42,806 bases of DNA from Candidatus Fermentibacteraceae bacterium (GTDB lineage: Bacteria > Fermentibacterota > Fermentibacteria > Fermentibacterales > JCC-6). Below the pieces are notes generated by a model. The model was not told the DNA's origin. It worked only from the letters and a program-made list of their open reading frames with translations, and made no database searches. The position numbers and the translations under genes were made by a program. Positions 4,314 through 18,929 of the stretch are shown here, in pieces. The DNA lies in assembly GCA_027067855.1 (NCBI GenBank), contig JAMOUX010000014.1:1-42806 (forward strand), in the 5' to 3' direction. Positions within the stretch are counted from its first letter, which is position 1; every line of letters begins with the position of its first letter.

Positions 4314-4335
4314 CTATCAAACTCCTTCTCGGTGT

Positions 4336-4361
4336 GCCCGGCGCCGGTGACGGCGCCGGGC
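4336..4361. other. Strong intercistronic hairpin, no U-tract
   Basis: A perfect 11-bp inverted repeat (GCCCGGCGCCG / CGGCGCCGGGC) with a 4-nt loop sits between the receptor stop and the exbB start. On the minus-strand transcript no run of U follows it, so it is not a standard intrinsic terminator. It may protect the 3' end of the receptor message or set the ratio of receptor to ExbB. That role is inference. Confidence 0.6.
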
Positions 4362-4375
4362 GTGAGGATCGCGGT

Positions 4376-7362: not shown

Positions 7363-8016
7363 TCAGCCGCCCAGTCCCAGCATCGCGGGAATAGTGGGCA
7401 GCCAATCCTCGATGAGGAAGGTACACCTGCCGATGAGCAGGCTCAGTCGCGCCATGATGGTGTATCCGAAACTGGCGCCGAAGGCTACCATCAGTATCGT
7501 TATACCCATGTTCGCCGTCCTGCCCACGAAACCGGTATGTGCCTTGGAGAAGAAGAAGTACACCAGGCCGCTCACAACTCCGACCACGAGCACCAGGCTG
7601 CTGAATACCTCCCAGACGCTACCCGCCGCCACGGAGATCATGGTTCCCTTCACCTGGGCCAGGGCGTTGGACTGGAAGAAGGTCACCATGTTGAGCCCGG
7701 CGCCGGTCCCCACTATCATGCCCAGGGCCAGCCTGGACAGGCCCGCAACCTTCGGCACCATCCTGGCCAGCATGAACATCGCGAATATTCCCGGCACGAG
7801 CCATATCGCGTCGAATCCCCCGTCTGCGGGGAACAAGTTCTCCCACCAGTTCGGAATGAGGACGTTGTAGATACTGTAGATCACCCAGTACCCGGCGCTC
7901 ATGCCCACGAACAGGTGTTCGACGAACTTGTAGAAAGGATTGTCACGGTACAGGAAGCTATACAGGCAAAGCGTAACCGCGGCGCCCAGCCATATGCCCA
8001 GTATCTCCCAGTTCAC
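7363..8016 (-). CDS. Integral membrane protein, last gene of four-gene membrane operon
   Basis: The GTG at 8016 overlaps the upstream stop as GTGA, and GGAAGGGAGG precedes it; it gives 217 residues. A longer reading frame upstream is shadow. The protein is mostly membrane: hydrophobic segments at about 4-20, 33-52 (FVGMSAGYWVIYSIYNVLI), 72-90, 96-118 (LALGMIVGTGAGLNMVTFF), 130-155 (GSVWEVFSSLVLVVGVVSGLVYFFFS) and 165-190. I do not recognise a family. It is translationally coupled to the preceding gene, so it probably forms a complex with the three proteins encoded before it. It has no transport or enzyme motif that I can name. Confidence 0.85.
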   Translation of the reverse strand: MNWEILGIWLGAAVTLCLYSFLYRDNPFYKFVEHLFVGMSAGYWVIYSIYNVLIPNWWENLFPADGGFDAIWLVPGIFAMFMLARMVPKVAGLSRLALGMIVGTGAGLNMVTFFQSNALAQVKGTMISVAAGSVWEVFSSLVLVVGVVSGLVYFFFSKAHTGFVGRTANMGITILMVAFGASFGYTIMARLSLLIGRCTFLIEDWLPTIPAMLGLGG

Positions 8017-8849
8017 CTGGCGCCTCCCTTCCTGCGGCTGAAGTACGATATGTTGCCTATTATTATGAACATCATTATCACCAGGTGCGCTATCGACTGG
8101 GGTGACATCCCCTTCACCGCGGGCCCCTCCTCGATGCCCACCAGAGTCTCGTAGTCGGCGGCTCCCTTGAGGCCTCCGAGCAGACCCACCATCTGGTCGG
8201 TCTGAAGGTAGGTGTACAGCTGGGGAGCGCTCACCGCGGTACATCCTCCCCCTATGGGAATACCGTACCTGTCGCCGGCCATCATCACCCAGGCTATTAT
8301 TCCCGGATCACCGGCGGAAAGGGAGATTACCAATTGTATGTCCTTCAGGCTGTTGATGCCCTCAAGCATCGGTATATCCTCCCAGGGAACGTTGTCCCTG
8401 TCCGCGGGGAACACGGCCTTGATGCTGGTTCCCATGCGAACGATCATCACCGCTCCGCCGGTCTTGTATCCCAGGTTGACCCAGTCCACGTACTGTTCCT
8501 TGCCCAGTGAATCCGCGAGGGTGGACATGGCGTGCTGGCCCAGGGCCGCTCCCTGAGGCCACAGGGCCGTTCCTATCACCTTGTGATTCTTCTCGAAGAG
8601 GTGCCTGACCACCGCTTCGGCCATGGGCTGGAGTTCCGGCATGGTGGAGGGATCGTAATCGAAGCTGACAATCACGTTCGAACCCTCCGGAAGGGCATCC
8701 ACGTAATCGAACATGTCCCTGCTGGGCTCGGCTCCGACTATGTTCGGAATGATCAGATCCGTAGTTATCGGTATTATCACGGCGAGCGCTATGAGTAAGA
8801 AGATCACCCGCCTGTCCAGGTCACCTATTTTCTGGAAGAAATTCGCCAT
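8013..8849 (-). CDS. Membrane-anchored protein with large soluble domain, unknown function
   Basis: The product is 278 residues with one transmembrane helix near the N-terminus (about 14-36, VIFLLIALAVIIPITTDLII) and one at the C-terminus (about 248-268, IAHLVIMMFIIIGNISYF). They enclose a soluble alpha/beta-looking domain of about 200 residues (VIVSFDYDPSTMPELQPM; VWVNLGYKTGGAVMIV-like region). The domain alternates beta strands and helices and has several Gly-rich turns (GGAVMIV, IPIGGGC). I know no named family for it. The start overlaps the preceding stop as TGATG and the stop overlaps the next start as GTGA. This tight coupling indicates a stoichiometric complex with its neighbours. Confidence 0.85.
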   Translation of the reverse strand: MANFFQKIGDLDRRVIFLLIALAVIIPITTDLIIPNIVGAEPSRDMFDYVDALPEGSNVIVSFDYDPSTMPELQPMAEAVVRHLFEKNHKVIGTALWPQGAALGQHAMSTLADSLGKEQYVDWVNLGYKTGGAVMIVRMGTSIKAVFPADRDNVPWEDIPMLEGINSLKDIQLVISLSAGDPGIIAWVMMAGDRYGIPIGGGCTAVSAPQLYTYLQTDQMVGLLGGLKGAADYETLVGIEEGPAVKGMSPQSIAHLVIMMFIIIGNISYFSRRKGGAR

Positions 8850-9472
8850 CAGTCCGCACCTCCCAGGTAGCTACGCTCTATGCCGAAGATCATCCGGAGG
8901 GAGGTGGCGACCACCCCCATTGCGGCGCCTATCATGACCGCCCTCTGCCCGGCGGTATTGGGAATGGCCATGAGCCAAACTTTCGCAAGCGGTATCTTGT
9001 TCCAGATCATGGCGCCTATGGGCACCTGGCCCAGCATTACGAGAAACGCCGACGAAAGCAGCAGCGTGGCCCTCCAGTTCGACGCCCTGAAAGCCCTGAA
9101 GGCCGCGGAGGCCACGAAGAACGCCAGGAGGCTGAACATCGTGGCTCCCATGGGGGCCACCATGTTCATAAAGAGGTAATCGAAAGGCTTGCCTTCCTCG
9201 ACCCCGTATATGAGCCCCAGGATCAGCATGACCACCAGGCCGATTATCGTGACCGGGCTGTACTGCCAGTTCCTGAGCCTGAGTTTCATCTTTCTCACAT
9301 GTACGTGAAGCAGGTTCGCCGTTCCCAGGAAGATCGCCCCCGAGGCGACTATCATGTACCATTCCTGGAGATGTTCCCCCAGGAACGCGAAAGGCTGATG
9401 GGGGATGAAGAAGTTGAGAATCATTATCATGCCGGCGGTGAAAGTTATCGCAAGTGGTATAACCAGTCTCAT
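8849..9472 (-). CDS. Polytopic membrane protein, unknown function
   Basis: This 207-residue protein has about five or six hydrophobic helices: roughly 3-22 (VIPLAITFTAGMIMILNFFI), 37-56, 73-92 (SPVTIIGLVVMLILGLIYGV), 108-128, 138-158 and 176-195. A basic loop (HVRKMKLRLRNW) follows the second helix. It begins 9 nt after the preceding gene and its stop shares bases with the next start (TGATG). I recognise no catalytic or transport motif. Size, hydrophobicity and operon place are like those of the 217-residue protein encoded two genes later, so the two may be paired membrane subunits; that pairing is inference only. Confidence 0.85.
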   Translation of the reverse strand: MRLVIPLAITFTAGMIMILNFFIPHQPFAFLGEHLQEWYMIVASGAIFLGTANLLHVHVRKMKLRLRNWQYSPVTIIGLVVMLILGLIYGVEEGKPFDYLFMNMVAPMGATMFSLLAFFVASAAFRAFRASNWRATLLLSSAFLVMLGQVPIGAMIWNKIPLAKVWLMAIPNTAGQRAVMIGAAMGVVATSLRMIFGIERSYLGGAD

Positions 9473-9481
9473 TCCAGCCTC

Positions 9482-10684
9482 CTATTCCACCGTGACCAGG
9501 TCACGAAGGAAATCGGCCACCGTCGCCATGGGTGGCCAGAACTGCCCCACCGTGGAAGCGATGACGCCGAGTACTATCAGCACTATGAAGAACAGCTTGG
9601 CGGCGTCCTGTCCTTTCAGGCTGCCCAGCAGCTTGGGCTCGCGGGACAGGTACGCGCTGGCGGCGAAGAGTTCTTCTCCTATGAGGGTGTAATCGCATGC
9701 GGCGACGAAGAAGGGAATCTGGCTGGGCATGGCCGTCCCCGCGATCTGTATGGCTCCCACGCTCCTGCCGGTTTCGGCGAGAATCAGGCTTTCCGCGTAG
9801 AACGTGCCCAGGAGGAATATCGCCGCCGGTTTCTCCCTCACCATTATACCGTCGACGCCCGCCGCGTATCCGAACTGGTCGTCGGTAAGATACTGGATAT
9901 TTTCCTTCACGTAAGCGTCCGGACGACCGGCCTGGAGGTAACCCTCCTTCACCACCTCCTGCGCCACGCTCATCACCACGCTCCTGCTGGTAGGAACAAG
10001 CAACGTCGTTCCATACTCCGCGGTCTTCCTGGCCACCCTGCCCAGAATGACCATGCTGGCGATGGTCTGAATGTCGTCCATATCCATGATTCCGGGGATG
10101 TACAACACCGGTTTGCCCATCTCGGTGGCCCTGCCCACCGCGTCATCCACGGCGGCGAGTCCTCCGATCTCCCTTATGTAGAGTTCCTTGCCCTTCTTGC
10201 CGGTTTCTATGTAATAAAGTATGAGCGCGGCCATTATACTCAGGATGACCAGCATGCCTATCCTGCCGCTGTGCAACCACTGGGCCGACGCGACCGCGGT
10301 TGCCGTTTCGGAAACACCCGCCACTTTTCCGCCCAGGTAAGACACTATTTTGTAGGTGTATTCCGTGCCGTTGACCGCGGTGGTGTCCCGGTAGAACACC
10401 GTTCCGGCGGGCAGTACGGCCAGGGTGTCGGCCTCGCCGGAAGGGTCCAGCCTGACTACGCCGATGGAATCCGGCTCCACTCCCCCGGAGTCCATCGCCC
10501 ATTCGAGATTGATGACTCCACCGGCGTCGTTCGGATTGTCGGACGCGGTCAGGTCGATTGCAACGCCGACGTTCGGCTGAATCGGAACCGCCATCACCCG
10601 GGCCCCGCCATCGCCGGCGGCCATCATCGCGCCGGGAAGCACGAGCGCCAGGAGCAGCGGAAAGACGCCCCGCAATATCGTCAT
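9482..10684 (-). CDS. Exported/membrane protein with Fn3-like ectodomain and conserved C-terminal domain (DUF6754-like)
   Basis: The start chosen is the ATG at 10684, directly after AGGAGGGATC, giving 400 residues; a longer frame would read through the terminator hairpin. Order: signal peptide (~1-22, LLLALVLPGAMMAA); an extracytoplasmic beta-sandwich of about 90 residues that looks like a fibronectin-III fold (DLTASDNP..., YRDTTAVNGTEYTYKIVSY); a transmembrane helix near 145-163 (IGMLVILSIMAALILYYIE); a soluble domain of about 200 residues (GKPVLYIPGIMDMDDIQTIAS); and a final hydrophobic helix near 370-390. From memory the central region resembles the family annotated DUF6754, whose function is unknown; I could not check this. 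It is first of four coupled membrane genes. Confidence 0.8.
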   Translation of the reverse strand: MTILRGVFPLLLALVLPGAMMAAGDGGARVMAVPIQPNVGVAIDLTASDNPNDAGGVINLEWAMDSGGVEPDSIGVVRLDPSGEADTLAVLPAGTVFYRDTTAVNGTEYTYKIVSYLGGKVAGVSETATAVASAQWLHSGRIGMLVILSIMAALILYYIETGKKGKELYIREIGGLAAVDDAVGRATEMGKPVLYIPGIMDMDDIQTIASMVILGRVARKTAEYGTTLLVPTSRSVVMSVAQEVVKEGYLQAGRPDAYVKENIQYLTDDQFGYAAGVDGIMVREKPAAIFLLGTFYAESLILAETGRSVGAIQIAGTAMPSQIPFFVAACDYTLIGEELFAASAYLSREPKLLGSLKGQDAAKLFFIVLIVLGVIASTVGQFWPPMATVADFLRDLVTVE

Positions 10685-10700
10685 GATCCCTCCTAACCTG

Positions 10701-10731
10701 AAAAACCGAGGCGCCCCGAGCCGGGGCGCCT
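10701..10731 (-). terminator. Intrinsic terminator/attenuator between the ATPase genes and the membrane operon
   Basis: On the minus strand a perfect 9-bp stem (AGGCGCCCC / GGGGCGCCT) with a 5-nt loop is followed by CGG and then TTTTT. The U-tract ends only ~8 nt before the AGGAGGG ribosome-binding site of the next gene (ATG at 10684). There is no room for a promoter between terminator and gene, so it probably works as a partial terminator or attenuator for the four membrane genes. Confidence 0.7.
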
Positions 10732-10769
10732 TCTCATCCGGAAATACCTGCAAACATTCATCTTCACGA

Positions 10770-11891
10770 CTACTCTTCTATCAGTTCCACGTTGGCCCTG
10801 GGAACGGTGACCGTTTCACCGTCGGGGAACTTCACGTCGAGCACCCTGACCTTGGCCTCGGAATCGAGCACCTGCAATTCGGCGGGAAGCGCCGCCACGA
10901 CGCCCAGCCTTCCGAAGTAAGGCGCCCTTATGCACCTGATCGGCGAACCGATCTCCATGGAACCGGTCTCCCTTCGCGAAGAGGTTTCCTCGACGCTCCC
11001 ATCCACGGGAATCACCACCTCCGGCCTCATGACGCCGGCTCTTATCTGCGTCGCGCCGTTCACGCTCGCCAGCATCCCCTCCCGCGACTTGAGAAGGTCG
11101 AAGGTACCGTGGGCCATGGTCATCCTGCCGAAACCCTCGGTGAGTATCAGCGTTATACCCTTCTTTTCGTGCCCGGTGATGGCCACTCCCAGGTCGTAAC
11201 CCAGGAAATCCTTCAGGTCCTTGTCGTCGAATCCTCCGATGACTATGGCCTTCGCGCCCACCGATACCGCCTTCTTCAAGGCGTCGTGAGAGACGAAGCA
11301 TCCGCCCAGCAGGACCTTCCCTTTGCAGGAAGCGTCCATCATGCCGGCGGTGAGTTCATCTCCGGGGCCGTTCACCATTACTTTCAGTTCTCCCCGGGTC
11401 TCGCCCCCGATACCGAAAATACCCTGGACGAAGGTCGCCACGGTCTCGATCACCACGCCTTCCTTCTCCAGTACCTCCGTCACCGTACCCCGCACGTACG
11501 CATCCACCTGTACGGGGAGCGGCGGTTCCCTTAACACCGCCTGCCCGGTTATCTTGTTGTAACTCTCGAAGATACCATTAATGGGAGAGCGAACGGTGTT
11601 CTTGAAAAGCCCGAAAAGACCCTTCGATTGCCCTATCACCTGCCCCTCGGTGATGGGGTCCCCTTCCTTTACCTGCAGAAGTTCGGGAATATCACCGGGC
11701 GGCAGGCCCAGCACGTTGGCCACGTTGAGCATCCTGACGTTGCCCGGAAGCTCGGTCTTCGCCACGATAGTATCCGCGGTCACGGAATCACCCTTCTCGA
11801 CAAGGGTTTCACCCATGAGAGGCAGTCTTCTCTCTTTCCGTACAACCGTCTTTTCGGCTACCCTCAATCCTGGTGTGTATGCAAACGCCAT
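10770..11891 (-). CDS. Barrel-sandwich/KOW-like protein paired with GlmL-like ATPase, function unknown
   Basis: The ATG at 11891 overlaps the ATPase stop as TAATG and follows GGAGGAGGA, giving 373 residues. The N-terminal ~125 residues look like a biotinyl-lipoyl/RnfC-type barrel-sandwich: GETLVEKGDSVTADTIVA, then KEGDPITEGQVIGQ and VRSPINGIFESYN, which are the paired hairpin repeats of such folds. No lipoyl or biotin Lys is obvious. The middle (about 175-280) alternates helices and strands with Gly-rich turns (IVIGGFDDKDLKDFLGYDLG). The last ~60 residues match a KOW-like SH3 pattern (GSPIRCIRAPYFGRLGVVAAL ... VTVPRANVELIEE). No signal peptide or membrane segment is seen, so it is likely cytoplasmic. 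It may link the ATPase to a membrane complex; that is inference. Confidence 0.85.
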   Translation of the reverse strand: MAFAYTPGLRVAEKTVVRKERRLPLMGETLVEKGDSVTADTIVAKTELPGNVRMLNVANVLGLPPGDIPELLQVKEGDPITEGQVIGQSKGLFGLFKNTVRSPINGIFESYNKITGQAVLREPPLPVQVDAYVRGTVTEVLEKEGVVIETVATFVQGIFGIGGETRGELKVMVNGPGDELTAGMMDASCKGKVLLGGCFVSHDALKKAVSVGAKAIVIGGFDDKDLKDFLGYDLGVAITGHEKKGITLILTEGFGRMTMAHGTFDLLKSREGMLASVNGATQIRAGVMRPEVVIPVDGSVEETSSRRETGSMEIGSPIRCIRAPYFGRLGVVAALPAELQVLDSEAKVRVLDVKFPDGETVTVPRANVELIEE

Positions 11892-13768
11892 TATTCTTCC
11901 TCCTCCAGGTGGATGAACCTGTCGGGATAGATTTCCAGCGCCATCGCCCACTCCTGGAGTTTTTCTATCCTCGTTGCATCCTTTTCGGGCAGGTCGAACG
12001 GTTTGCGTCCCCTTCCGTCGAATATGAGGCCCACGACTCCTCCTTCAAGGGTTCCCATCCATTCGTCCCCTGGACCGGCTCCCACGTCCAGGCCCCTTGC
12101 GGGCCTTATCACCGCATCGACCTTTTCACCCACGCCCAAGGGCTCCACGTGCATCTTTCCGCGTTCCACCCGGATCTTCTTCACGGTTCCGTCGGGGGAA
12201 GTGTACTCGACCTCGGCCAGTACGTCGGCCTTACGATTCTCCCCGGACGGAGCGACGCAAGTACCCAACCTGATCAGGCAGTCCTTGTCGAAAACCTCCG
12301 TCGCAGCCTTGGGATGAACCTCGGACAGAACACCCAACTGCGGCATCATGAATATGGAATCCACCGCCAGTTTCGTGATACCTTCCGGCAAAAAGGAGTC
12401 GATGAGCATCAGCGCCGCCTGGCTTCTCCTGGGCGCATGGGATAAGACTCCGCCGGAACCTATCAGAAGATCGAGAGACATCATGTTCACCAGTGTGGAG
12501 CCGGTCTGGGTCTGCTCGAACGCATCTCCTATGGTCCTCTCCTGGGCCACTCCCTTGAGGCCGGTGGCCAGCTCCTTATGCTGTACCAGCGCCAGCCTCA
12601 GTGCTTCCCTGGCTATGGCCTGCTCCACTATGAGTTCCTTGAGCATCTGGGGAATCGTGGTGGGACGGATCATCTTGTTCCGGATCCTGTTCCGGAGATC
12701 CGCCTCGTCCATGTGGAACGGCACCCAGCGCATGACATTGTCGAACCCAGCGCTGGCCAGCACGTTCGAAACGCTGTAGCTCATGCCCAGGTTCGCGGAG
12801 ACCGTCCTGTTGAACACCGGTTCCCCGGCTCCGTCCTTGAAGACGCTGAACACGTCGGTGGTGGCACCGCCTATGTCCACGCCCATCACTTCGATTCCTT
12901 CGTTCTTCGCCACTGTTTCTATGAGCTTGCCCACCGCTCCGGGGGTGGGCATTATGGGGACCTGCTTCCAGCGGCCTTTCTCGTCGTAGTACCCCGCCCA
13001 CTCCATCAACTTGGGGTACCCGGGAGCCTGGGCCATCACGTGTTCCATGAACAGTTCGTGGATGATATCCCTCGCCGGACCCAGGTTCTCCTTCTCCAGG
13101 ACCGGGCGGAGGTTATCCACTATTTTAAGTTCCACCCGGTCGCCGAGCGCTTCCTTGACCGCCTCCCTGGCATCCTTGTTGCCGGCGAATATCACCGGAA
13201 GCTTATAGCCCACGCCGAACCTGGGCTTGGGATCGGCGGCCCTGATTATTTCCGCCAGCTCCACCACGTGATCGATGGTGCCGCCGTCGATACCCCCCGA
13301 CAACAGTATCATGTCAGGCCTCAGCCTCCTGATGTCCGCCACTTTCTCGTGGGGGAGCCTGCCGTCGTTGGAAGCCACCACATCCATAACTATGGCCCCC
13401 GCCCCGAGGGCCGCCCTCTGGGCGCTCTCGCCCGTCATGGTCTTCACCACTCCGGCCACGGTCATCTGCAGCCCCCCGCCGGCGGAAGACGTCGACATGT
13501 AGATATCGACACCCCCCTTGCCGTCGGGAGATATCTCTATGCCTTCCCCGTCCGCCTTCAGGAACTTTCGTCCTTCCAGGTCCTCTATTTCGGCCACGGC
13601 GTTAAGCACTCCCTTGGTCACGTCTTCAGCCGGGGCCTCGACGGTGGTGGGAGCCTCGCCCCTCCGTATCAGGCGGTATTCGCCGTCCCTCTTTTCTATC
13701 AGGATGGCCTTCGTGGTGGTACTGCCGCAGTCAGTAGCCAATATCCTGGCAATCTCTTTTCCGGCCAC
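11891..13768 (-). CDS. GlmL/MutL-like ASKHA-fold ATPase
   Basis: This 625-residue protein belongs to the glutamate mutase L (MutL/GlmL) family of actin-like ATPases. It shows the phosphate-1 loop at 12-20 (TDCGSTTTK), the phosphate-2 loop at 298-305 (DIGGATTD) and the adenosine motif at 437-440 (GSGG). It is longer than classical GlmL (about 460 residues), with extra C-terminal beta-rich sequence to residue 625. GlmL is thought to act as a chaperone or reactivator of the B12-dependent glutamate mutase GlmS/GlmE. No such mutase is in this window. The start is a GTG at 13768 behind a strong AAGGAGGT. Context is a run of small, barrel and membrane proteins downstream of the glycine cleavage genes, so it may drive a different complex. 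Confidence 0.88.
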   Translation of the reverse strand: MAGKEIARILATDCGSTTTKAILIEKRDGEYRLIRRGEAPTTVEAPAEDVTKGVLNAVAEIEDLEGRKFLKADGEGIEISPDGKGGVDIYMSTSSAGGGLQMTVAGVVKTMTGESAQRAALGAGAIVMDVVASNDGRLPHEKVADIRRLRPDMILLSGGIDGGTIDHVVELAEIIRAADPKPRFGVGYKLPVIFAGNKDAREAVKEALGDRVELKIVDNLRPVLEKENLGPARDIIHELFMEHVMAQAPGYPKLMEWAGYYDEKGRWKQVPIMPTPGAVGKLIETVAKNEGIEVMGVDIGGATTDVFSVFKDGAGEPVFNRTVSANLGMSYSVSNVLASAGFDNVMRWVPFHMDEADLRNRIRNKMIRPTTIPQMLKELIVEQAIAREALRLALVQHKELATGLKGVAQERTIGDAFEQTQTGSTLVNMMSLDLLIGSGGVLSHAPRRSQAALMLIDSFLPEGITKLAVDSIFMMPQLGVLSEVHPKAATEVFDKDCLIRLGTCVAPSGENRKADVLAEVEYTSPDGTVKKIRVERGKMHVEPLGVGEKVDAVIRPARGLDVGAGPGDEWMGTLEGGVVGLIFDGRGRKPFDLPEKDATRIEKLQEWAMALEIYPDRFIHLEEEE

Positions 13769-14581: not shown

Positions 14582-16045
14582 CTATTCCCCGACGCTCCCT
14601 TCGTTCAAGGGTTCCACAACGCAAAGCTCCTTAACCGCCCTGACCTCGTCCAGCCTCAGGACCGGGGTGTTTACCGGGGCGTCCTTCAGGAGATGAGGCT
14701 TCTCTTCGGCCTCTCCGGCTATCGAGATCATGGCGGAAGCGAACCTGTCGAGTTCCGCCCTGTCTTCGGTCTCGGTGGGTTCTATCATCAGGGCTTCGTG
14801 CACTATCTGGGGAAAGTAGATCGTCGGAGCGTGAACACCGTAATCCAGGAGACGCTTGGCTATGTCGAGGGTCTTGACCCCCAGGCGGGCCTGCCTGTCT
14901 CCGGACAGCACGAACTCGTGCATGCAAGGCCCGTGATCGAACGGGTTGTCGTAGTACTCGGACAACAGGGCCCTGAGATAATTAGCGTTCACCAGCGCAG
15001 CCTCGCTGACCTCCCGCAATCCCCGGGCGCCCATCGTGAGGATATATGCATAGGCCCTGTACAGGACACCTATGTTTCCATGGAACGCCAGCAACCTGCC
15101 GAAGGAACCGTCCTTCTTCCGCAGGGCATACCCGCCGTCGTCTTTCATGACCACCACGGGATCGGGAAGGAACCCGGCGAGTTCGGCGGAACAGGCCACG
15201 GGTCCCGAACCGGGCCCGCCCCCGCCGTGGGGCGACGAAAAGGTCTTGTGGAGATTCAGATGGCAGACGTCGAAACCCATGTCTCCCGGTCTCGCAATAC
15301 CCAGCAGGGCGTTCATATTGGCCCCGTCCATGTAGTTGAGCCCTCCCGCATCGTGCACGATGGACGTAATCTCCCCGATGTGGGATTCGAATAATCCCAG
15401 GGTATTGGGATTCGTGAGCATGAAAGCCGCGGTGTTGGGGCCCACTTTCCTTTTCAGGTCTTCCGGGTCCACGAGACCGTATTCGTTCGACTCGACTCCC
15501 ACCACTACGCAATCCGCCAGCGTAGCGGTGGCCGGGTTCGTACCGTGGGCGGAATCCGGCATCAGGACTTCGTTCCTATGGAACTCGCCCCTGTGCTCGT
15601 GGTAACTTTTTATCAGCATGATCCCGCAGAATTCCCCCTGCGCGCCGGCGGCGGGTTGAAGAGACACCCCCCGGAAACCGGTTATCTCGCACAGGAGTTC
15701 ACCCAGGTGATGCATCAGTTCCAAGGTTCCCCGGACCTGGTCGTCGGGGAGCAGGGGATGCAGGGCCGTGAGGCCCGGAAGCCTCGCCAGGTTTTCGTGC
15801 AACTTGGGATTGTATTTCATGGTACAGGAACCCAGGGGATATATGCCCTTCTCCAGGTGGTAATTCAAGGAGCTGAGCGAGACGAAATGCCTCATGACCA
15901 TACCCTCGGACAGTTCGGGCAGCCCTATCCGTCCCTCTTTCTCCCTGGAAAACTTCTCCGGCAGTTCCTCCGTCTTCGGTACGTCCAGTCCGGGAAGGGA
16001 AACACCGATACCCCCCGAACCGCCGGTGTCGAATATCGTCTTCAT
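14582..16045 (-). CDS. gcvPB: Glycine dehydrogenase (decarboxylating) subunit 2 (P-protein beta)
   Basis: The P-protein decarboxylates glycine with PLP and passes the aminomethyl group to lipoylated GcvH. In this two-subunit form the beta chain carries the PLP lysine. It is seen here within DVCHLNLHKTFSSPHGGGGPG, the family signature. The length of 487 residues is normal for gcvPB. Other conserved parts are the start (LPELSEGMVMRHFVSLSSLNYHLE region, LGSCTMKYNPK) and the GAQGEFCG motif. The ATG overlaps the stop of gcvPA as ATGA, so the two chains are made in equal amounts. The stop lies 38 nt ahead of the GlmL-type module, and I see no terminator between them. Confidence 0.96.
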   Translation of the reverse strand: MKTIFDTGGSGGIGVSLPGLDVPKTEELPEKFSREKEGRIGLPELSEGMVMRHFVSLSSLNYHLEKGIYPLGSCTMKYNPKLHENLARLPGLTALHPLLPDDQVRGTLELMHHLGELLCEITGFRGVSLQPAAGAQGEFCGIMLIKSYHEHRGEFHRNEVLMPDSAHGTNPATATLADCVVVGVESNEYGLVDPEDLKRKVGPNTAAFMLTNPNTLGLFESHIGEITSIVHDAGGLNYMDGANMNALLGIARPGDMGFDVCHLNLHKTFSSPHGGGGPGSGPVACSAELAGFLPDPVVVMKDDGGYALRKKDGSFGRLLAFHGNIGVLYRAYAYILTMGARGLREVSEAALVNANYLRALLSEYYDNPFDHGPCMHEFVLSGDRQARLGVKTLDIAKRLLDYGVHAPTIYFPQIVHEALMIEPTETEDRAELDRFASAMISIAGEAEEKPHLLKDAPVNTPVLRLDEVRAVKELCVVEPLNEGSVGE

Positions 16046-17394
16046 CGCCCGCCTCCCCCGCAGATAACGGAGGCGGTTTCGAAATAAGCCTCCATCTGTT
16101 CCCGGTTCCTCTTCTCGGTCGCCGTGATCAGCATGACCCCGTCACCCAACCCGGGCAGGGGAATTCCCGGAAGGATACCGGCATCCAGCATCCGTTCCAT
16201 GAACACCCGGGACGAAACCGGGAACGAAAGGGTGAACTCCCTGAAAAAGGGAGTATCGCCGAAAACCCTGGTAACGCCCGGTATCTCCAGCAGCTTCTTT
16301 TCCAGGTAGTGACTCCTGTGATAACACTGCGACGAGATTTCCCTGAAACCCTCCTCGCCGGTCAGCGCGAGATATACGGCGTTGGCCAGGGCCATTAGCG
16401 CCTGGTTGGTGCAGATGTTGCTGGTGGCCTTTTCGCGACGGATGTGCTGTTCCCTGGTCTGCAGGGTCATCACGTAGCCTTCCCGGCCCGCCCTGTCCAC
16501 GGTCCTGCCTACTATTCTCCCGGGCATTTTCCTCGCGAACTTCAGCCCGGATGCCATGAAGCCCGAGTAAGGCCCCCCGTATGAAAGAGGTATGCCCATG
16601 CTCTGGCCCTCTCCCACCACCACGTCCGCACCCGCGTCACCGGGGGAACGCAACAGGGGAAGCGACACCGGGTCGGCCGCCACGACGAACAATCCCTTCA
16701 TGGAATGAGCCAACCGGGCCAGGGGCTCCAGGTCCTCCACGAGCCCGAAATAATTGGGATATCCCACCAGTACCGCGGCCACGTCGTCTCCCGCGAGTTT
16801 CTCCGCGGCGTCCGGGTCGAGAGTTCCGTCTTCCCGGAAAGGTATCTCGTTCAACCGGAAGCTTCTCCTCCTGGTATAAGTCCGTATCACCTTCAGCCAC
16901 CTGGGATTAAGGGAACCGGCCACCAGGACCCTGTTTCTCCCGGTTACGCGCATGGCCATGAGGCACGCCTCCGCGGCGGCCGAGGCTCCGTCGTACATGC
17001 CGGCGTTAGCCATCTCCATCCCGGTAAGCCTGGCGATCATGGTCTGGTACTCGAATATGGCCTGCAGCGTTCCCTGGCTGGCCTCCGCCTGGTAAGGTGT
17101 GTAGGCGGTGTAGAATTCGCTCCGGAGAAGGACGTGATCCAGCGCGGCCGGGATGAAATGGTCGTAAGCCCCTCCTCCGGCGAAACATATCTTTTCCGCA
17201 CCCTCGTTACCTGCGGCCAGTTTCTTGAACCTGTCCACCAGTTCGATCTCGGACATGGGACCGGGAAGGTCGAGAAGCCCCCTGAACCTGAATTCCTCCG
17301 GAATGGGCTCCAGGAGATCGGGGAATTTTTCAACCCCTATGACCTCCAGCATCTCATTCCTGGTCTTTTCGTCGTAGGGTATGAAGCGGTTCAT
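16042..17394 (-). CDS. gcvPA: Glycine dehydrogenase (decarboxylating) subunit 1 (P-protein alpha)
   Basis: This 450-residue alpha chain forms the heterotetrameric P-protein with the gcvPB product in the glycine cleavage system. It has the fold-type-I transferase shape without the PLP lysine. The start (MNRFIPYDEKTRNEMLEVIG) and the segments SEFYTAYTPYQAEASQGTLQ and GMEMANAGMYDGASAAAEA match the family well, and the length is normal. It begins 3 nt after gcvH and overlaps gcvPB by four bases. The split P-protein form is common in anaerobes, Firmicutes, archaea and several candidate phyla, but rare in Proteobacteria, where gcvP is fused. Confidence 0.96.
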   Translation of the reverse strand: MNRFIPYDEKTRNEMLEVIGVEKFPDLLEPIPEEFRFRGLLDLPGPMSEIELVDRFKKLAAGNEGAEKICFAGGGAYDHFIPAALDHVLLRSEFYTAYTPYQAEASQGTLQAIFEYQTMIARLTGMEMANAGMYDGASAAAEACLMAMRVTGRNRVLVAGSLNPRWLKVIRTYTRRRSFRLNEIPFREDGTLDPDAAEKLAGDDVAAVLVGYPNYFGLVEDLEPLARLAHSMKGLFVVAADPVSLPLLRSPGDAGADVVVGEGQSMGIPLSYGGPYSGFMASGLKFARKMPGRIVGRTVDRAGREGYVMTLQTREQHIRREKATSNICTNQALMALANAVYLALTGEEGFREISSQCYHRSHYLEKKLLEIPGVTRVFGDTPFFREFTLSFPVSSRVFMERMLDAGILPGIPLPGLGDGVMLITATEKRNREQMEAYFETASVICGGGGR

Positions 17395-17397
17395 GAA

Positions 17398-17781
17398 TTA
17401 TTCGCCGATCAGCCTGGAATATTCTTCCGCGGTCTTCAGCGCCTCGAATCCCGAGGGATCGTCGGTCTTAAGCACGACGATCCAGCCGCGGCCGTAACAA
17501 TCCTCGTTGATCAGCGCGGGTTCGTCCTCCAGTTCCTCGTTGACCCTCACCACCTTGCAGTCGAACGGAGCGTAAAAATCCTCGGCGGTCTTCACCGCTT
17601 CAAGTGAACCGAGAACGTCTCCGACACCGTATTCGTTCAGGCCGGGGAATTCCACCATCACTATCTCGCCCATCTGGTCCTGGGCATAGAAAGTGAGCCC
17701 CATCATGTATTCTCCCCCTCCAAGATCCTTAACCCACTCGTGGGTGTCAGTGTAGCGAAGGTCCTTGGGAACGTTCGACAT
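17398..17781 (-). CDS. gcvH: Glycine cleavage system H protein
   Basis: GcvH is the small shuttle of the system; its lipoyl arm moves the aminomethyl group between the P, T and L proteins. The 127-residue length is typical. The lipoylation lysine is K64 in GSLEAVKTAEDFYAP, in the normal hairpin position, and the N-terminal RYTDTHEWV segment is a hallmark. An AAGGAGG site (reading CAAGGAGGAAGAG) lies directly before the ATG. The gene sits between gcvT and gcvPA; gcvT ends 50 nt upstream. No lipoate ligase or lipoyl synthase is in the window. Confidence 0.96.
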   Translation of the reverse strand: MSNVPKDLRYTDTHEWVKDLGGGEYMMGLTFYAQDQMGEIVMVEFPGLNEYGVGDVLGSLEAVKTAEDFYAPFDCKVVRVNEELEDEPALINEDCYGRGWIVVLKTDDPSGFEALKTAEEYSRLIGE

Positions 17782-17831
17782 CTCTTCCTCCTTGAATCAG
17801 TGGGCGGCCGTCCGGCCCCCTGGGTCTCCGA

Positions 17832-18929
17832 TTATTTCCTGCTCCCACCCTTGTAGAAGGGAAGCTTCACGGCTTCAACCGGGATTCTCCTGTTTCTGAC
17901 TTCCGCCTCCAGCCTGGTGCCGGTTTTATGGTAGCCCCGTTCCACCAGGGCCAGGCATATGCCGTATCCCAGGGTCGGAGCTATCGAACCGCTGGTCACC
18001 ACTCCGACCTTTCCTGACCCGTCGAACAACTCGGCCCCGTGCCTGGGAAAACCCTTTCCCTTCACCTCGAAACCGGTGATGTACCTGGACGGCTTCTCCC
18101 TCTTCTGCCTCTCCAGGACCTCCCTGCCGATGAAATCCTTGTCCGTCTTCAACTTGAGAACCCAGCCCAGCCTCGCTTCCACCGGAGTCACCGAGTGATC
18201 GATATCGTTTCCGTAGAGCAGGTACCCCATTTCCAGCCTCAGGGTATCCCTGGCGCCGAGCCCCACCGGCTTTATCCCGAACTCCTTCCCGGCCTTCATC
18301 ACCGCGTCCCAAACGGCGGGAGCGGCGGCGGGCTCCATGTACAGCTCGAACCCGTCCTCGCCGGTGTAGCCGGTCCTGGCGATGAGAGCGTCCTTCCCGG
18401 CCACCCTGCCCGTGACGTGACGGTAATATCCCACCGATGCCAGGTTCTCGTCGGTGAGCCCCTCCATCACCTTTTCCGCGTCCGGCCCCTGTACCGCTAC
18501 CAGGGCGGTGTCATCGCTCTCGTTCGTAAGTTCCACCGAAAAACCGGACTTGTGGCTGTTCACCCACGCCCAGTCCTTCTCGATATTGGCGGCGTTGACC
18601 ACCATGAGGAACTCCTCCGGAGAAATCCCGTACGTGATGAGGTCGTCCACTATTCCGCCGTCGGGGTAACACATGGCGGAATAGAAGGCCTGCCCCGGTT
18701 CCACGTCCGCGTCGTTGGTGAGTATGTAGTCCAGGAACTTCACCGCGTCCGGCCCCTTCACCCTGAATTCTCCCATGTGAGAAAGATCGAACACGCCGAC
18801 GCTCTTCCGGACCGTCTTGTGCTCATCCGTTATACCCGTATACTTGACGGGCATGAGATACCCGGCGAAGGGCTCGATCCTGGCGCCGAGTTCAACGTGT
18901 TTCTGGTAAAGAGCCGTCTTTTTGTTCAT
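17832..18929 (-). CDS. gcvT: Aminomethyltransferase (glycine cleavage T protein)
   Basis: GcvT moves the aminomethyl carbon to tetrahydrofolate, releasing ammonia and giving 5,10-methylene-THF. The start used is the ATG at 18929, preceded by GGGAG, giving 365 residues, the normal length. The first residues (MNKKTALYQKHVELGARIEPFAGYLMP) fit the family, while an upstream in-frame start at 18986 would add an unrelated 19 residues. Other signatures are VFDLSHMGEFRVKGPDA, ARTGYTGEDGFELY and GLGARDTLRLEMGY. It is the first gene of the operon T-H-PA-PB, with a promoter candidate just upstream. The folate carrier links it with folE/folP farther right in the window. Confidence 0.96.
   Translation of the reverse strand: MNKKTALYQKHVELGARIEPFAGYLMPVKYTGITDEHKTVRKSVGVFDLSHMGEFRVKGPDAVKFLDYILTNDADVEPGQAFYSAMCYPDGGIVDDLITYGISPEEFLMVVNAANIEKDWAWVNSHKSGFSVELTNESDDTALVAVQGPDAEKVMEGLTDENLASVGYYRHVTGRVAGKDALIARTGYTGEDGFELYMEPAAAPAVWDAVMKAGKEFGIKPVGLGARDTLRLEMGYLLYGNDIDHSVTPVEARLGWVLKLKTDKDFIGREVLERQKREKPSRYITGFEVKGKGFPRHGAELFDGSGKVGVVTSGSIAPTLGYGICLALVERGYHKTGTRLEAEVRNRRIPVEAVKLPFYKGGSRK

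Follow-up and report, generated by a model that had tools for sequence, protein, structure and literature searches.

Attenuators of amino-acid and ribosomal operons carry a terminator-like hairpin before the structural genes, a layout shared by the junction described here. Other counterparts come from clostridia. The ABC-importer operons of Ruminiclostridium cellulolyticum are reported to contain internal terminators with GC stems and low-U tails that pair ahead of the stem; their termination was measured and varied widely in efficiency, and a stem-loop without a U-rich tail is described in the same study as having failed to terminate (PMC9045158). In Clostridium cellulolyticum, the stem-loops of the cip-cel operon have been reported to set transcript ratios through selective RNA processing and stabilisation (PMC4423207).

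The element considered here lies on the minus strand of the window, the whole 42.8-kb stretch of DNA that was analysed. As in R. cellulolyticum, it is a GC-rich stem-loop that follows an upstream gene and precedes genes for membrane proteins, its tail is limited in U and pairs, in many members, with sequence preceding the stem, and the downstream genes would likewise be expressed via read-through; unlike the clostridial terminators as reported, it belongs to another phylum and to other genes, its termination is predicted from sequence, and it also ends the upstream gene set where the membrane operon is elsewhere (PMC9045158). Like the cip-cel elements, it is a stem-loop located between genes of a long operon, at the 3' end of the one upstream, but those elements are reported to be marked by a mapped processing site, whereas the T-enriched tail of this one suggests termination (PMC4423207). 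The element is real, conserved and well placed, and of an ordinary known kind in a new place. We read it, with a probability of about two in three, as an intrinsic-type 3' terminator of the upstream set, internal and leaky, so that the membrane genes would be expressed by read-through.

The junction and its genes in the window

Genes of the same strand flank the hairpin on both sides, according to the gene calls. The features, in the direction of reading, are as follows.

14582..18929, minus strand: glycine cleavage genes T, H, P1 and P2, upstream and in the same direction (Pfam, gene calls)
11891..13768, minus strand: MutL/GlmL-like ATPase-fold gene (PF13941, E 2.7e-127)
10770..11891, minus strand: BSH gene, encoding a barrel-sandwich-hybrid-like protein, with the hairpin 3' of it (gene call, weak RnfC_N match)
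10709..10731, minus strand: predicted terminator hairpin, a perfect 10-bp stem with a 3-nt loop, whose strength in combination with T5 is unique in the window and which is kept in relatives
10701..10705, minus strand: U5 tract, 3 nt (CGG) past the stem (read from the sequence, folding)
10691..10696, minus strand: ribosome-binding site AGGAGG of the DUF6754 gene (read from the sequence; GGAGG retained in relatives)
9482..10684, minus strand: DUF6754 gene, the first membrane gene (PF20539, E 3.8e-120; start behind AGGAGG)
8849..9472, minus strand: mem2, the second membrane gene (gene call; no Pfam family)
8013..8849, minus strand: mem3, the third membrane gene (gene call; no Pfam family)
7363..8016, minus strand: mem4, the fourth membrane gene (start from a simple gene caller)

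Two small genes without a Pfam match also belong to the upstream same-direction set, and the four membrane genes are followed downstream by genes for a TonB-dependent receptor, ExbB, two ExbD proteins and TonB. Three of the four membrane proteins (window 7363-9472) had no Pfam match above cut-off, and none of the papers searched contains the word DUF6754. The earlier note spoke of an ATPase pair ahead of the membrane genes, a description that suits the MutL/GlmL-like PF13941 protein but not its partner, the barrel-sandwich protein, whose RnfC_N match is weak and under the cut-off.

The BSH gene ends with TAG at 10772-10770, and the DUF6754 gene starts with ATG at 10684. Read on the minus strand from 10731 to 10709, the hairpin is AGGCGCCCCG GCT CGGGGCGCCT, with stem arms AGGCGCCCCG and CGGGGCGCCU and 9 of 10 pairs being G-C. 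A CGG spacer at 10708-10706 separates the stem from the U5 tract in the window's species; the distance to the ATG is 24 nt from the end of the stem and 16 nt from the end of U5, and folding indicates UGAGAA, which precedes the stem, as an alternative pairing partner of U5. The earlier note had the hairpin in the right place and with the right terminator-like look. Two of its details need a small correction: the stem is 10 bp long and not 9, and the U5 tract is parted from the stem by CGG.

A strict motif (a perfect stem of at least 10 bp with at least 9 G-C pairs and T5 within 3 nt) occurs a single time in the 42.8-kb window, compared with a mean of 0.017 and a maximum of 1 in 60 dinucleotide shuffles. 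A loose terminator scan of 14 kb returned 15 sites against 11.0 +/- 3.0 in shuffles, scarcely over chance, and the junction hairpin ranks first among the terminator-like sites of the scanned 14 kb. The hairpin is stable and GC-rich (10 bp, -21.0 kcal/mol); a 41-nt stretch folds at -23.2 kcal/mol (z -3.2, equalled by 1 of 200 shuffles), and longer stretches of 89 nt and 137 nt are unremarkable in folding (z -1.5 and -1.0). The window junction is present as one copy in its own genome, and so does not behave as a REP-like dispersed repeat; across 19 genomes of the genus the hairpin core pattern occurs at no more than one place per genome, 9 of the 12 places being this junction.

Several further observations concern the window and its genome. 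A second strong hairpin, also on the minus strand (4314-4375), has an 11-bp stem, a 4-nt loop and no U tract; it sits between the TonB-dependent receptor gene and the ExbB-like gene, 22 nt before the latter. Elsewhere in the window's genome (G000) is another, distantly related membrane operon of four genes including DUF6754 (L071, G000:C24:19500-27700), with 30-46% protein identity and no MutL-like or BSH match in the 8.2 kb covered. G000 alone among 19 genomes of the genus lacks the Y1 transposase family PF01797, which the other 18 contain; at 1.86 Mb, it is the smallest among the genus genomes listed as at least 90% complete.

Retention of the hairpin among relatives

Relatives, uncultured bacteria of the Candidatus Fermentibacteria, were sorted into genera labelled g1 to g9 without names, the window belonging to g1. 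A search of 60 genomes at E <= 1e-10 detected the DUF6754 protein in 49, and in the order's 42 genomes the BSH protein was detected in 36 at E <= 1e-30. Scanning named genomes yielded 27 BSH loci, of which 25 bear the titles Candidatus Aegiribacteria, Sabulitectum or other names from the Fermentibacteria, one is titled Hyd24-12 and one (L131) only "bacterium". Comparison of the stem in related genomes, which the earlier note had proposed, bears out the arrangement: the order BSH, hairpin, DUF6754 is found in all 17 readable loci, namely 16 from g1, including the window, and one from the sister genus g2. Excluded rows were G004 and G014, which have no readable junction, G013, whose contig starts within the repeat, L102 (contig end), and G034, G040 and G041 (no BSH match at 1e-30). 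The stretch of G003 in the junction alignment was placed by hand, because the finder had extended that stem.

Over these 17 loci the hairpin follows the BSH stop by 29-38 nt and has a stem strength of -16.6 to -25.3 kcal/mol. The distance from hairpin to ATG is 20-30 nt in g1 and g2, rising to 67-68 nt where a palindrome has been inserted (three loci). This palindrome, of about 41 nt (AGGAGTGTGTCTGCCAATGTTTCATTGTCGGACAGGCTCCT in L036), occupies the same spot between the hairpin and the ribosome-binding site in four g1 genomes (L036, L040, L041 and L043), three of which are measurable, and the tree requires 3 changes to account for it. Its 19-nt end (at most 1 mismatch) occurs in 1 to 19 copies in 15 of 18 genus relatives and in none in the window's genome; there are also longer copies at other places, some 95 nt in length, and in two cases (L150, L154) such a copy immediately precedes a ribosome-binding site and ATG.

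The nine core pairs are intact throughout the alignment save for one gap cell, with changes on both sides at 3 of the 9. For a 15-pair structure that includes the lower stem, 87.9% of cells are paired versus 82.7% in shuffles, 15 cells carry both-side changes versus 6.3, and the covariation score is 0.327 versus 0.226, with 0 of 500 shuffles as high in each case. The two measures, out of five, that according to the tool used are least misled by relatedness are not above shuffles: pairs with both-side changes number 6 versus 4.8 (151 of 500 as high) and further pair types 16 versus 14.8 (166 of 500). Sliding the partner by 1 to 3 columns lowers pairing to 40-55%. We take the structure to be retained, with moderate evidence from pair changes and with lower pairs that are often broken.

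Beyond these genera, a hairpin precedes DUF6754 in 3 of 3 loci of the group f3, and G020 and G036 have no hairpin in gaps of 3 and 23 nt. On a tree of DUF6754 and mem2, the hairpin amounts to one change and the adjacency to two; G020 and G036 are long branches that meet on this tree, and their join is unsure. Where same-strand genes are 30-149 nt apart, hairpins are infrequent: three genomes of the genus have them in 6 of 49, 3 of 35 and 0 of 25 such gaps.

The hairpin travels with the upstream gene. Although g4 and g5 have their membrane operon elsewhere, folding places a hairpin after the BSH stop in 14 of 14 ends; the simple stem finder detects 13 of these, the hairpin of L094 being visible only by folding. 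A survey of these ends, based not on gene calls but on open frames of 150 codons or more, found the closest one to be convergent in 9 of the 14, with a same-strand frame first in 2, both strands open in 2 and none in 1.

Tails, promoters and regulation

In the 17 g1 and g2 loci, the 8 nt past the last G-C pair contain on average 4.88 T, where composition would give 1.6-2.0. Hairpins at convergent gene ends, located with a simple gene caller, have 3.11 T in the window's own genome (9 of 22 gaps), 4.25 T in G001 (8 of 24 gaps), 3.67 T in G010 (3 of 26 gaps) and about 4.2-4.4 T in 200 kb of E. coli K-12 (4.22 over 36 of 52 gaps). The tails average 2.67 T in the three f3 loci and 4.0 T in 13 g4 and g5 ends. 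Judged by this composition, the g1 tails are ordinary for predicted terminators and the f3 tails are poorer. The idea that tails in this phylum lack U was rejected as an artefact of stems extended into A-U pairs; counted from the last G-C pair, the tails are T-enriched. A computed terminator score is -13.7 in the window, low because of the three-base spacer. It exceeds zero in 12 of 17 g1 and g2 loci, in none of the 3 f3 loci and in just 1 of the 13 g4 and g5 ends that were scored, the negative scores of the last group arising partly because the stem was extended into the tail.

The main rival to termination is RNA processing, in which one whole-operon transcript would be cut near the junction and the hairpin would protect the 3' end of the upstream mRNA, with little or no termination. 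Such processing would give similar sequence marks. In its favour, the stems are strong in all 17 g1 and g2 loci, whereas the tails of several relatives and the 3-nt spacer behind the stem in the window's species are poor for termination; in many species, moreover, the tail is paired to bases that precede the stem, and the cip-cel operon, as reported, provides a precedent (PMC4423207). The T-enrichment of the tails, similar to that at convergent gene ends, speaks against it, since a pure RNase barrier needs none, and we regard this explanation as unlikely.

The g5 genomes, in which the operon stands apart, inform the question of how the membrane genes are transcribed. All 13 carry a TTG-led hexamer, a 17-nt spacing and TATTAT, starting 58-81 nt before the DUF6754 ATG. 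A strong site of this type, a pattern that was defined after the g5 sites had been seen and that fails in both g4 genomes, is present within 300 nt before the ATG in 0 of 15 g1 and g2 loci and 0 of 3 f3 loci, and within 120 nt in neither of the 2 g4 loci. The promoter search, like the analyses of BSH-end variation and of antiterminators, covered 15 of the 17 g1 and g2 junctions (L039 and L044, whose BSH gene is cut by the contig, were left out); the promoter search treated G013 as adjacent though its BSH end is off the contig. Because a strong promoter-like site occurs in 13 of 13 separate g5 operons and in 0 of 15 behind the hairpin, read-through is the likeliest route of membrane-gene expression. 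The relatives thereby supply a positive control, and the earlier note's claim that the space behind the hairpin leaves no room for a promoter agrees with our findings. That the four genes must be read through was put too strongly: a promoter inside the upstream gene is an alternative, if an improbable one.

Such an unseen promoter, in the end of the BSH gene, would drive the membrane operon and leave the hairpin merely in the downstream 5' leader. Loose promoter-like sites do occur in 8 of the 15 g1 and g2 loci: six share one kind of match, 192-235 nt upstream of the ATG within the BSH coding end, and two have a different match at 151 nt; neither the window nor six others of the 15 has any. 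The matches sit, moreover, within a coding region in which 49 of the last 51 codons vary in form among the 15 loci, and a transcript begun there would also run into the hairpin, which makes this explanation very improbable.

The outside relative L131 (59% identity in BSH, 67% in the MutL-like protein and 49% in DUF6754) has the order BSH, 11-bp hairpin, TTGACA-N17-TAGCTT, DUF6754. Because it combines a terminator with a promoter-like site, this single locus fits promoter loss in g1: terminator plus promoter may have been the earlier state, from which this genus would have lost the promoter.

The earlier note also raised the possibility of a regulated attenuator, in which a ligand, a protein, a leader peptide or a stalled ribosome would toggle the hairpin to control the membrane operon. 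The hairpin does stand immediately before an operon that otherwise lacks a promoter, a 24-codon frame spans it in the window, and a similar 17-codon GTG frame is found in five close relatives (L034, L035, L039, L042 and L069). Unlike the attenuators of amino-acid and ribosomal operons, however, this junction has no competing structure above shuffles, no leader peptide common to all relatives and no Rfam family matched at gathering score in a scan of the window. Duplexes of the 5' arm with the 150 nt upstream were no better than shuffles at any of the 15 junctions (fractions 0.10-0.97), so the antiterminator candidate was dropped; a recurring duplex position around -69..-58 falls in the conserved BSH coding end. 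A leader peptide over the hairpin was likewise rejected: frames span it in 16 of 17 junctions, but their start and length mostly differ and none is common to all 17, while the 17-codon frame is absent from the window, lacks a ribosome-binding match in a script test and is taken for the shared ancestry of near-identical DNA. A TTG at 10753 that would fuse a leader to the DUF6754 frame was taken as mechanical ORF extension, and hiding of the ribosome-binding site by the tail appears in folds of single species (e.g. L032, L033, L046), not in all. The 67-68 nt between hairpin and ATG in the palindrome-bearing genomes imply that close coupling is seemingly unneeded, and the hairpin remains with the upstream gene where the membrane operon is elsewhere. 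The attenuator proposal finds no support in these comparisons and strikes us as highly doubtful. A regulated gate, by which both gene sets would form one functional system whose ratio is changed by anti-termination in the genera where they are adjacent, with g5 running its membrane operon from a separate promoter, is a similarly long shot.

A candidate internal terminator

Under the leaky-terminator reading, the hairpin would end the upstream set, made up of the glycine cleavage genes, the MutL-like gene and the BSH gene, and may also protect the end of the upstream mRNA. In the window's genus the DUF6754 operon begins 20-26 nt past the hairpin (67-68 nt with the repeat) with no visible promoter. 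We infer that RNA polymerase would halt at the hairpin part of the time, the efficiency of termination leaving a read-through fraction from which the four membrane genes would be transcribed; these would be translated from their own strong AGGAGG site. The predicted outcome is a membrane protein level that is lower than, and in mostly constant relation to, that of the upstream genes. The terminator reading is weakened because CGG parts the stem from U5 in the window's species, because scores are negative in 5 of 17 g1 and g2 loci, 3 of 3 f3 loci and 12 of 13 scored g4 and g5 ends, because two of the five pair-change measures are not above shuffles, and because G020 and G036 have no hairpin.

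Sister lineages seem to express one membrane operon differently, with a conserved terminator and no visible promoter in one case versus the operon's own promoter in the other, which would offer a natural comparison of how operon ratios evolve. The locus also ties the glycine cleavage and MutL-like genes to four membrane proteins that are uncharacterised.
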